Assembly (NCBI GenBank): GCA_945915475.1
Contig: CAMEFI010000032.1
Location: 1 to 35,937, forward strand
Reading direction: 5' to 3'
From: an uncultured Clostridium sp.
Lineage (GTDB): Bacteria; Bacillota; Clostridia; Lachnospirales; Lachnospiraceae
Length of the DNA stretch: 35,937 bases
Shown: piece by piece, positions 26,419-35,696 of the stretch
Numbering within the stretch: the stretch's first letter is position 1
Layout: every line of letters begins with the position of its first letter
The notes under the pieces: generated by a model
Databases searched by the model: none
The model's input: the letters and a program-made list of their open reading frames with translations, nothing else
Told to the model about the DNA's origin: nothing
Translations under genes and position numbers: made by a program

Positions 26419-27519
26419 TCAATCCCATATGATTCTGGCCGCTGCACATGGTGTACGGTATCCGATGCTGGATACGATAATACCTGTAGTGGAGCTGCTG
26501 GCATGTACTACCTGTCCACCGCCAATATACATGGTAACATGTCCAATGGAGCCGTCTTTCCCCCGATAGAACAACAGGTCACCGGGCTGGATTGCAGATA
26601 AATCCACACTGGAAAGTCCCTGCATCTGTGCCGCTGCTGTTCTAGGCAGGCCATAACCAAAATGAGCATATACACTCATGGTAAATCCGGAACAATCTGT
26701 TCCATTGGTAAGGCTTGTACCACCATATACATAAGGATTGCCAACAAACTGTAATGCATAATTCACAATCTCCTGACGTTTGGTACTTGTCATCTCAGCC
26801 AAACGTGCCTGTTCTTCCGCTTCTTTCTGTTTGCGAATCTCTTCCTCCTCCGCTACTGAAATTGCATGGGAGAAACCATAGGAGATATCAACATATTCAG
26901 AAGATACATATCCTTCAATATCTGAGTCTACCTGGATATATGTCCATCCATCCACATCATCATCCCTTGGAATCACTTCATAAGATTCTCCTTCCGGAAT
27001 CATGGTGAGGCATTCACTGTTCTCATTCTGTTCCGCACGAACATACAACGTCGTTGTGTTAACTTTTGCCACCTTCGGGCAAGTCTCCTCTGCATATGCT
27101 CCTGCTGCGTCTCCAAAAAGAAGATAGTCATTACGGACATATCCCATTGTAATTCCGGACTCAATCTTCGTCCAGGTATCTCCCTTCTCAGCAACCAGTG
27201 CAATACCATGCACCGGAAGACTACCTACACGCTCTGAATTCTCATCCGGTTCTGCGCGGACATTCACAGCCTCTTCCACATATGCAAGACATTTACCTTC
27301 AAACTCCGGATACTTACAGGTAGGTGCTTCCTCCTCTGTTGTAACATCCTCTTCTTTGATCTCTTTCACATTAAGACTGGATACATACTGGTCTAATGCG
27401 TATGTGATACCAACATCTGAATCATCTAATACCTCTGCATGACTGACAAATGCCGGTGTTAATATTCCAATTGTGCCTACTGCTAAAAAAGCCATGCTGA
27501 TTACACTGCTCTTCTTCAC
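26419..27519 (-). CDS. secreted SH3 / NlpC-P60 peptidoglycan endopeptidase
   Basis: A secreted cell-wall hydrolase that likely cleaves peptide stems of peptidoglycan. Residues 1 to about 30 form a signal peptide (KKSSVISMAFLAVGTIGIL...SHA). Two bacterial SH3 domains follow (around 75-140 with VNVRAEPDENSERVG, and 145-215 with LYVRAEQNENSECLT), then a short E/K/Q-rich linker and an NlpC/P60 domain. Its catalytic set is C276 in TDCSGF, H327 in GSIGHVTMY and H339 in VVHAS. The start is GTG with AGGAGG 6-7 nt upstream; a longer frame overlaps the preceding gene. Co-transcribed with the YjfB-like gene (19-bp gap). Confidence 0.95.
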   Translation of the reverse strand: MKKSSVISMAFLAVGTIGILTPAFVSHAEVLDDSDVGITYALDQYVSSLNVKEIKEEDVTTEEEAPTCKYPEFEGKCLAYVEEAVNVRAEPDENSERVGSLPVHGIALVAEKGDTWTKIESGITMGYVRNDYLLFGDAAGAYAEETCPKVAKVNTTTLYVRAEQNENSECLTMIPEGESYEVIPRDDDVDGWTYIQVDSDIEGYVSSEYVDISYGFSHAISVAEEEEIRKQKEAEEQARLAEMTSTKRQEIVNYALQFVGNPYVYGGTSLTNGTDCSGFTMSVYAHFGYGLPRTAAAQMQGLSSVDLSAIQPGDLLFYRGKDGSIGHVTMYIGGGQVVHASSSTTGIIVSSIGYRTPCAAARIIWD

Positions 27520-27538
27520 AATATACCTCCTACTCTTC

Positions 27539-27724
27539 TTATAATCTAATGTCAATATTCTGACCTACCAGTGGATTCACGGAACGCTCTAACATCTGTG
27601 TCAGCATATCCCCGTTCATCTTATCCGCATCTAATGCTTTATCTAATAATTTCATACCAATCGCTGAATTCGTATTGGCATTCGACAATACGGTAGTTGA
27701 TAACCCTAACCCCTGAATATCCAT
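27539..27724 (-). CDS. YjfB family putative motility protein
   Basis: A 61-residue protein with the YjfB pattern: MDIQGLG at the N-terminus, a helical middle (AIGMKLLDKALD), and the ending VNPLVGQNIDIRL. This family is found with flagellar genes in Firmicutes; its function is unknown. ATG at 27724 has AGAGGG 9 nt upstream; a TTG three codons earlier is not needed. A promoter lies at 27784-27812. The next gene is a cell-wall hydrolase. Confidence 0.85.
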   Translation of the reverse strand: MDIQGLGLSTTVLSNANTNSAIGMKLLDKALDADKMNGDMLTQMLERSVNPLVGQNIDIRL

Positions 27725-27783: not shown

Positions 27784-27812
27784 ATTATATTTCATTTATT
27801 TTTCTTTTGCAA
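27784..27812 (-). promoter_or_regulatory. sigma-A promoter of the yjfB-nlpC/P60 pair
   Basis: Minus strand: TTGCAA (27807-27812) and TATAAT (27784-27789), 17-bp spacer. About 60 bp before the YjfB start. Confidence 0.75.
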
Positions 27813-27869
27813 CTGGAAATTTATGAAAGTATCCAACTCCCGGAAAACCTTTTCTTTCTCCTCTTCATT

Positions 27870-28100
27870 ATGAATCTCATTGGTGATTGCGAAACTCCTA
27901 TTTAATCTATAAACGTTGTGCAGATTTAACAATATCCTCGCAGGCACGCTCTCGCTGCTCTCGCCTCGCAGCGGTACTAAACTCGTGTTTCACACTCGTT
28001 AAGTGCCGGCGGTCTCAAAGCACCTGCTTAGGATACTTGTCAAATCTGCACAACTCAATATGCATTTTCAAGAGTTTCGCAATTGCCTAATGAATCTCAT
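27870..28100. mobile_element. MITE-like element (27881-28089) with 11-bp target duplication
   Basis: A 209-bp insertion flanked by the direct repeat ATGAATCTCAT (27870-27880 and 28090-28100). Its ends are inverted: ATTGCGAAACTC (27886-27897) with GAGTTTCGCAAT (28072-28083), and GTTGTGCAGATTT (27915-27927) with AAATCTGCACAAC (28042-28054), with 17 nt between the paired blocks on both sides. The centre is GC-richer than its surroundings. No transposase is encoded; a 67-codon frame crosses it but looks like noise. An 11-bp duplication would fit an IS4/IS231-type transposase acting in trans, which is inference. Confidence 0.75.
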
Positions 28101-28158
28101 GACGCATTCCCGGTAAAAGGACACCGGACACATATAATCCAACTATACGGATCAGCAT
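28087..28158 (-). pseudogene. 5' part of a small gene split by the MITE-like element
   Basis: Directly after the tetR stop (TAAATG), ATG at 28158 opens a frame that reads MLIRIVGLYVSGVLLPGM RHEIH and then stops at TAG formed by the element end. If the element and one copy of the duplication are removed, the frame runs on for 25 more codons (27869 down to stop at 27792), ending INFQLQKKNK: 48 residues in all. The restored protein has a short hydrophobic start and a charged helix. No family is recognised. Whether it was ever expressed is unknown; the supporting evidence is the clean excision and the position behind tetR. Confidence 0.45.
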
Positions 28159-28719
28159 TTATTCTACCTGAAAACCGGTAGACAATCTTTGTGATATTTC
28201 CAGCATAGCACTTGACATCTGTGCTGTATCAAACTCCTTGAGCACTCCTAAATATCCATTAATCACAAATGTAACATATATATGATGCAGGAAATACTCT
28301 TCTGTATTGCAACCCATTCCTGCATCTACATATTTTTTCATAATCGTATCCGTGACAGCCCGTTCTAACTTCTGTACTGTTGATTCCATTCCTCTTCTCT
28401 GCATCAGGGAACCCAATCCGTTTGGTTCTGCAAAATGTGCATCTGCAATCCTCTGCCACATTTCCGGAGCCTTGCTAATGGTTTCATTATAAGGATACTC
28501 GTCAATAATGGCGCATACGCCCTGAATCAGCCGGTTCTCAATGGATTCCGCCAGATCATATATATCCCGGTAATGCAGATAAAAAGTACTCTTATTAATA
28601 TCTGCCTTTGCGCAAAGTTCCTTTATGGTTATCTCATTAAGCCTTTTCTCTTTGATTAGTTCACAAAACACATCACAGATTGCTTTTTTGGTCTTACGCA
28701 CCCTTCTGTCTTCTGCCAT
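28159..28719 (-). CDS. TetR/AcrR family transcriptional regulator
   Basis: A 186-residue regulator with an N-terminal TetR helix-turn-helix (VRKTKKAICDVFCELIKEKRLNEITIKELCAKADINKSTFYLHYRDIYDL) and a helical ligand-binding C-terminus of no obvious family. The NKSTFYLHYRD segment is typical of the YcdH/DhaS-like TetR set. The start at 28719 has AGGAGG 8 nt upstream. It has its own promoter at 28786-28814. No divergent target gene exists: the upstream neighbour hsp20 has a separate CIRCE-controlled promoter. The natural target may be the now-disrupted small gene or a distant locus. Confidence 0.9.
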   Translation of the reverse strand: MAEDRRVRKTKKAICDVFCELIKEKRLNEITIKELCAKADINKSTFYLHYRDIYDLAESIENRLIQGVCAIIDEYPYNETISKAPEMWQRIADAHFAEPNGLGSLMQRRGMESTVQKLERAVTDTIMKKYVDAGMGCNTEEYFLHHIYVTFVINGYLGVLKEFDTAQMSSAMLEISQRLSTGFQVE

Positions 28720-28785
28720 ATATGCAACTCCTCCTCGTTTTCCCATCTTTTTTCTAATTTTAGCATATTACTGGACATTCGTCTA

Positions 28786-28995: not shown

Positions 28996-29430
28996 ATGTT
29001 AGTACCAAGTATTTTTTCAAATGATTTGTTTGATGATTTTTTTAATGATGCCGCACCATCAAGACACTATGTGCAATCTGCGAATTCCAGAAACCTGATG
29101 AACACTGATATCAAAGAATTCGAGGACAGATACGAATTAGGTATTGAGCTTCCCGGCTATAAGAAGGAAGACGTAAGTGCCAGTCTGAAGGACGGTTATT
29201 TAACCATTGAAGCAGAACGTCATGCTGACGAGACATTGAAAGACCGCAACGGCCAGTATATCCGCAAGGAATGCTTTACCGGTAAATGTCAGCGTAGTTT
29301 CTATGTTGGTGAACTTGTTACACAGAACGACATTCATGCTTCCTTTGAAAACGGTATTCTGACTATCATCGTTCCAAAGATCAAGGAACAGCCAAAGGTG
29401 GAGAAGACTAATTACATTTCCATCGAGTAA
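28996..29430 (+). CDS. Hsp20/alpha-crystallin small heat shock protein
   Basis: A 144-residue holdase chaperone that binds unfolding proteins without ATP. The N-terminus has the LFDDFFNDA segment common in clostridial Hsp20. The alpha-crystallin domain runs from about 33 to 135 (TDIKEFEDRYELGIELPGYKKEDVSASLKDGYLTIEAER ... ASFENGILTIIVPK), and the C-terminus is short with an I-x-I-like end (YISIE). It is the only protein gene on the plus strand. AAGGAGG precedes ATG. CIRCE control implies HrcA regulation with the chaperonin regulon. A shared terminator hairpin separates it from the convergent ABC operon. Confidence 0.96.
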   Translation: MLVPSIFSNDLFDDFFNDAAPSRHYVQSANSRNLMNTDIKEFEDRYELGIELPGYKKEDVSASLKDGYLTIEAERHADETLKDRNGQYIRKECFTGKCQRSFYVGELVTQNDIHASFENGILTIIVPKIKEQPKVEKTNYISIE

Positions 29431-35624: not shown

Positions 35625-35696
35625 TGGGGTATCGCCAAATGGTAAGGCAACGGACTCTGACTCCGTCATTTCCAGGTTCGAATCCTGGTACCCCAG
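35625..35696 (+). tRNA. tRNA-Gln (anticodon CTG)
   Basis: A 72-nt cloverleaf: acceptor TGGGGTA pairs with TACCCCA (35689-35695), discriminator G at 35696. The anticodon stem ACGGA/TCCGT encloses CTCTGAC, giving anticodon CTG (glutamine, CAG). The T loop GGTTCGAATCC is standard. CCA is not encoded, so 3' maturation depends on RNase Z (rnz is in this window) and a CCA-adding enzyme. Confidence 0.96.

Follow-up and report, generated by a model that had tools for sequence, protein, structure and literature searches.

The inverted ends of Correia elements flank up to 156 bp of internal sequence, and these elements duplicate TA. The Correia elements of Neisseria are named in a paper (PMC3049150) according to the accessible part of which MITEs are thought to be moved in trans by IS with like ends, as in the case of Nezha with ISNpu3. 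For ISCaa15, a member of the IS1182 family, the part available of another paper gives a 4-bp direct repeat (PMC3196728). Here, we describe a structured repeat from an uncultured Clostridium sp. of the Lachnospiraceae, one copy of which lies in the window, i.e., the whole stretch of 35,937 nucleotides that was analyzed. The repeat is common in Lachnospiraceae, and no earlier description of it was found: the literature searched, outside of which most subscription journals fall, held no description of this repeat or of an IS addressed by Shine-Dalgarno (SD) sequences.

Structure and distribution of the element

The window element (27881 to 28089; minus strand, following its conserved core) is a 209-bp inverted-repeat insert inside an 11-bp duplication, ATGAATCTCAT, the two copies of which (27870 to 27880 and 28090 to 28100) are identical and have no third occurrence in the window. 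A terminal T is common to the duplication and the element, and a division into 210 plus 10 bp is equally valid as one into 209 plus 11 bp. By repeat search and GGYRWTTGCGAAAC motif counts, the terminal inverted repeats were placed at 27881 to 27897 on the plus strand (TGGTGATTGCGAAACTC) and, with the help of an 18-base end search, at 28072 to 28089 on the minus strand (TAGGCAATTGCGAAACTC). The outer inverted-repeat pair (27886 to 27897 and 28072 to 28083) comprises 12 nucleotides with 100% identity. Nested within it is an inner pair of 18 nucleotides with 94% identity, identified by repeat search and covariation; its left arm (27915 to 27932, plus strand) and right arm (28037 to 28054, minus strand) enclose the conserved structured core, which was delimited by its match to model R1 (27934 to 28034, minus strand) and has its base at the left arm. 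GC content was 57% in the core of the element and 36% and 41% in the 500-bp flanks, and the fold of the element was far more stable than that of shuffled sequences (z = -9.6 and -9.1 for the two strands; 0 of 200 shuffles equal). The first-pass annotation had proposed a MITE-like insertion with an 11-bp target duplication, two inverted blocks at each end, and a GC-richer core; the identical flanking copies of ATGAATCTCAT, the nested pairs, the base composition, and the many other copies described below bear this out, and its coordinates were correct.

With the element and its duplications as the query, 35 near-full copies (91 to 100% identity, window copy included) were found in the assembly to which the window belongs (3.09 Mb in 81 contigs), in addition to pieces of the element, several of which were located at contig ends. 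The annotation would have counted the lack of any second copy against insertion; 34 more near-full copies were found, one of which matches the window element across all 209 bp, and this number of copies within one assembly excludes chance. The GGYRWTTGCGAAAC motif, with 1 mismatch allowed, was present at 145 places in the assembly, compared with 6 for the reversed control pattern. Short, devoid of a transposase gene, bounded by terminal inverted repeats and a target duplication, and present in multiple copies, the window element is MITE-like.

Larger and variant forms were observed in the same genome. A 573-bp element (L099, 1789 to 2361) has the same ends, a like core motif, and far longer inverted arms; it has eight more long matches in this genome, and no transposase or open reading frame (ORF) of note was found in it in this assembly. 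Elements in L101 (1647 to 1902) and L108 (1290 to 1490) also have the same ends and measure about 200 to 256 bp, that in L101 having a variant core.

Relatives of the element were detected in 22 of 25 same-genus and 2 of 10 same-family genomes, and in 0 of 24 same-order genomes, among the 60 genomes searched, own genome included. In the genome collection, the 18-base end TAGGCAATTGCGAAACTC was present in at least 106 stretches. Titles among the 80 such loci listed included Lachnospiraceae bacterium, Roseburia, Anaerocolumna, Acetatifactor, and Lachnospira, as well as Clostridium sp., Clostridiaceae, Oscillospiraceae, and a few Bacteroides-type metagenome bins. Exact ends occurred in contigs titled Bacteroides, Muribaculum, or Bacteroidales (L182, L197, L200, and L232), and these bins may be mislabeled. 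Paired ends among the listed loci spanned 34 to 366 bp, with a mode of about 150 or 200 to 215 bp and with some mates being weak, and none of the listed paired elements contained an open frame of 100 codons. Partial matches in relatives were mostly complete small elements; L304, L305, and L310 are copies of the core without the ends of the element. No match to the window element was found in phages, and its 18-base end had no exact match in viral contigs.

The locus behind tetR

Joining the flanks with one copy of the duplication yields MLIRIVGLYVSGVLLPGMRHEIHNEEEKEKVFRELDTFINFQLQKKNK, a frame of 48 codons that begins directly behind the stop of tetR, as had been annotated. The gene of this TetR-type regulator (28159 to 28746, minus strand; PF00440, 23.7 bits versus a cutoff of 24) was used as a syntenic anchor. 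Thirteen orthologous tetR loci of the genus were compared; at 10 of these, the gene next after tetR encodes an alpha/beta hydrolase, and the joined 48-residue peptide aligned to the C terminus of this hydrolase in all ten (E values from 7e-10 to 3e-4 by tblastn, run on 14 loci only and without composition correction). The sequence GMRHEIHNE of the hydrolase in relatives is restored without a gap across the element junction. Genome collections hold one genome per species, and the intact hydrolases of other species served as a proxy for the empty site. The hydrolase of L157, the one of the ten on which Pfam was run, has 313 amino acids and matched PF12146 (6.8e-38). Approximately the last 30 to 38 residues are left in the window, about 275 residues are missing, and the full-length fold and the catalytic part of the hydrolase are not present at this locus. 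Judged by homology and by synteny behind tetR, the joined frame is a C-terminal hydrolase relic, which alignment to the orthologous loci divides into a part before the insert (MLIRIVGLYVSGVLLPGMRHEIH; 28090 to 28158, minus strand) and a part after it (NEEEKEKVFRELDTFINFQLQKKNK, with the stop; 27792 to 27869, minus strand). Given the C-terminal match and the missing residues, the insert sits in a relic, and either deletion or insertion may have come first.

The annotation had instead concluded that the insert split a functional small gene, the product of which might be the partner of the TetR regulator. The position of the 48-codon frame directly behind the tetR stop speaks for such a gene, but the later two thirds of the frame correspond to the hydrolase C terminus, nothing in the 13 loci convincingly matches its first 15 or so residues, and in none of them is tetR followed by such a 48-codon gene. 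A partner gene is therefore highly improbable, and the reading of the locus is corrected to that of a dead hydrolase.

In L155, L158, and L160, there is no hydrolase behind tetR but a gene for a yjfB-like small protein, and L158 appears to have retained a scrap of the hydrolase start. Neighbors in the window are genes for an NlpC/P60 plus SH3 protein (26419 to 27555, minus strand) and for Hsp20 (28996 to 29430, plus strand).

The target site

An SD-like motif started 15 to 21 bp from one edge of the element in 35 of 35 own copies (right side in 18, left side in 17). In scoring own copies and those of other genomes alike, variants of AGGAG were accepted and the side with the motif nearer to 18 bp was chosen, which flatters the 35 of 35 and affects the following spacing less. 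The start of the motif minus the length of the duplication equaled 7 in 25 of the 35 copies; in these 25, the cut nearer the motif falls precisely 7 bp ahead of AGGAG or one of its variants, and the far cut varies. Duplications measured 9 to 14 bp in 32 of 35 copies, and three had none by the strict test. Those three and the seven copies that deviate from a spacing of exactly 7 were counted against the explanation, and three of the seven (L023, L027, and L288) have AGGAGG at a gap of 4, which places AGG at +7 again.

The same spacing was found in other genomes, where 80 distinct end sites were scored after 1 of 81 had been dropped as a duplicate. A mate was present at 58 of the 80; the SD-like motif was present in 51 and absent in 7 of these 58. 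Among the 51 paired sites with a motif, the duplication was at least 8 bp in 32, 7 bp in 1, and absent in 18. Spacing was exactly 7 in 24 of the 32 scorable sites (motif and duplication of at least 8 bp), and the remainder had spacings of 6 (two sites), 8 (four sites), 2 (one site), and 9 (one site). At unpaired ends, the motif was on the outer side in only 11 of 22, which, like the 7 paired sites without a motif and the 18 without a duplication, counts against the explanation. AGGAG started 15 to 21 bp outward in 36 of 140 flanks, versus 0 to 3 in each of 19 equal windows farther away.

Nearly all own copies are a few tens of base pairs upstream of a start codon, and intragenic insertions would be purged, so that selection could merely have retained copies just upstream of genes with no targeting of SD sequences at all. 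We regard this as very improbable, since selection can hardly account for a spacing held to the base pair (7 in 25 of 35 own copies and in 24 of 32 from other genomes), and no more harm should come from copies located farther upstream or in between convergent genes. Moreover, the window copy obeys the spacing in the absence of a following start codon: its AGGAG (27858 to 27862, minus strand) is 18 bp from the edge and follows the duplication after a 7-bp spacer (27863 to 27869, minus strand), the common spacing among the copies, and this motif lies inside the coding relic. A start codon is thus not needed.

Alternatively, the machinery might follow a promoter or transcription start (open complex), with the SD spacing as a by-product of short leaders. 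Of 35 targets, 14% indeed had TATAAT between -18 and -5 relative to the SD, compared with 1% of 98 background gene starts, and this zone near the target was also more AT-rich, so promoter features may add to target choice. As the primary address, a promoter is nevertheless improbable, given that the -10-like motif is found in a minority of targets and at variable positions, whereas the SD spacing is nearly fixed, and that the window target is within a coding relic.

Its place in front of genes and its conserved, covarying structure would also suit an element that is not a transposon but acts in cis as a leader RNA for the genes downstream. However, orientation of the core relative to the SD showed no preference, neither in own copies (17 sense, 15 antisense, and 3 both) nor in other genomes (17 sense, 24 antisense, and 6 none), and transposition is evident from the target duplications and from the autonomous element that shares the ends; a leader RNA is extremely improbable.

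Autonomous elements and transposase

In a same-genus genome (L386/L387), a 1,770-bp element with window-type ends contains an ORF of 491 amino acids and is inserted by the same rule, with an 11-bp duplication (TCATTTTAACC) followed by 7 bp and then AGGAG. The encoded transposase matched DUF772 (1.4e-12; 47.9 bits, over a cutoff of 23.1) and, weakly, DDE_Tnp_1 (21.1 bits versus a cutoff of 23). Its best NCBIfam match was IS1182 (NF033551), at 70.8 bits under a cutoff of 270, which does not make it a member of that family. Three residues are identical in seven aligned transposases, i.e., D in (D)(S/T)(S/T)G, D in FLGD, and E in VE, and these would form the DDE triad.

Of 194 related genomes, 28 contained matches to the L386-type transposase, many of them fragments; matches were also present in 5 plasmid records, two of which, from Butyrivibrio proteoclasticus and Roseburia sp. 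831b, had full-length ones. Seven autonomous-type copies were tested for the target rule. In four of them (L387, L388, L391, and L395, the last being broken), a motif in range was combined with a duplication precisely at the edges, and the spacing was 7 in all four. L389 and L393 had a motif at 18 bp and no duplication; in L390, no motif was in range, and the sole repeat, of 8 bp, was at shifted edges. As for plasmid copies, inspected by eye, a 14-bp direct repeat without a motif was seen in L417, and a motif in range without a duplication in L418. These five copies count against the explanation. In L417 (1344 to 3124; Butyrivibrio proteoclasticus pCY360), the transposase element is adjoined by a second element end, with the same 14-bp repeat between the two, as though two copies were arranged in tandem; no gene is listed there in the gene table, which is itself incomplete.

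PF01609 was found at 25 places in 12 of 26 genus genomes, and ends on both sides were present only at L386 among these 25 loci. The search of the own assembly for PF01609 gave no match, and that for the L386-type transposase, in which the smallest contig read was 2.56 kb, gave 0 matches; a collapsed repeat with the transposase could be missing from this assembly. Of the 22 same-genus genomes in which the element has copies, 14 likewise gave no match to the L386-type transposase, which was counted against the explanation. A transposase with matching terminal repeats, which the annotation had suggested looking for in this genome, was found in L386/L387, L388, and L391, in other genomes of the genus and family, but not in the own assembly.

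Two further loci with ends 1.6 to 1.8 kb apart, L292 (Anaerocolumna) and L358 (G442), were considered as autonomous elements and rejected, as ordinary genes and no transposase are enclosed. In L292 (1970 to 3560), the ends are 1.58 kb apart and flank an apparent gene for an ABC transporter sugar-binding protein.

The structured core

Alignment A1 comprised 45 of 83 elements, i.e., 4 of 36 own rows (a pool that includes one refetched copy) and those 41 of 47 others that were under 235 bp. It contained 35 predicted pairs, 28 of which had pair-keeping changes on both sides. In the 33 pairs with a Watson-Crick majority, G-U was counted 58 times versus 25 times for A-C on the minus strand of the window, counts that ignore kinship, and this excess suggests an RNA of that strand. 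Model R1 (101 positions) was built from 41 of 55 candidate cores, with three divergent and eleven redundant or shortened cores excluded. In genome searches with stricter filters, by which weak matches are lost, and with at most 27 or 16 candidates scored per genome, the R1 core was detected in 66 of 150 family genomes and in 7 of 245 class genomes, all 7 of Lachnospiraceae. In Rfam 15, no family exceeded its cutoff at the element, either in the window or in 18 element-bearing loci; the only matches over the cutoff were a tRNA in the window (35625 to 35696, plus strand) and a T-box elsewhere in L187.

Cores with different outer ends were seen in L311 to L316 (G002), L317 and L318 (G005), and L321 and L322 (G015). 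Several of these are likewise shortly upstream of a ribosome-binding site, and that of L317 precedes a gene that by eye resembles the one for the ATP synthase c subunit.

Two elements in which no core was visible by eye, one of 51 bp (L182 and L223, probably the same locus in two assemblies) and one of 131 bp (L214), fit the target rule, so the core seems dispensable in cis for targeting. Recognition of the SD motif by RNA, be it the core acting in trans or the 30S anti-SD on nascent RNA, and not by the transposase alone, appears rather unlikely; if true, it would mean a transposon addressed through base-pairing to Shine-Dalgarno sequences.

Discussion

We propose, with a probability of roughly 0.85, that the window element is a non-autonomous transposon moved in trans by a Lachnospiraceae IS with the same ends, with an SD-like motif as the address. 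Copies, duplication, target spacing, and an autonomous element that shares these ends and this spacing are observed directly, and the shared ends and shared specific target rule argue that a transposase of the L386 kind, with DUF772/DDE domains and distant kinship to IS1182, would mobilize elements of the window type. The transposition machinery, probably the transposase itself, would read the motif, cut one target strand 7 bp 5' of AGG(AG), and cut the other farther upstream, at a distance that varies, so that duplications of mostly 9 to 14 bp would arise; the element enters the target in either orientation. Real ribosome-binding sites are by far the most frequent among the surviving insertions, since the element there sits upstream of the site and leaves the protein intact, and copies in coding sequence would presumably be lost by selection. 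In the window, the motif lies within the hydrolase relic behind tetR, where insertion would be without cost.

The tolerance of a genome for dozens of gene-adjacent insertions would be explained if a ribosome-binding motif served as the address, since a landing site just upstream of the ribosome-binding site spares the protein. Such an address would constitute a natural, nearly base-exact targeting rule that is open to biochemical testing, and perhaps a tool for DNA insertion upstream of genes in gut Lachnospiraceae.

In comparison with known systems, the L386 transposase shares with the IS1182 family DUF772 and a weak match to DDE_Tnp_1 but is far under the family cutoff (70.8 versus 270 bits), and the 4-bp direct repeat given for ISCaa15 in the available part of its description differs from the duplication of mostly 9 to 14 bp found here at 7 bp from AGGAG. 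Rfam 15 structured RNAs have covarying helices in common with the element, which matched no family over the cutoff. Correia elements are alike in having inverted ends that flank an internal sequence, but they duplicate TA, whereas the window family has duplications of mostly 9 to 14 bp and an N7-AGGAG site. The pneumococcal BOX, RUP, and SPRITE repeats and Nezha-type MITEs are, like the window element, short, multi-copy, and strongly folding, with ends that match those of IS (PMC3049150); in the accessible part of these descriptions, to which rather than to sequences the comparison refers, no fixed distance to an SD sequence is given for them (PMC3049150), whereas the element described here keeps one of 7 bp at most of its target sites.
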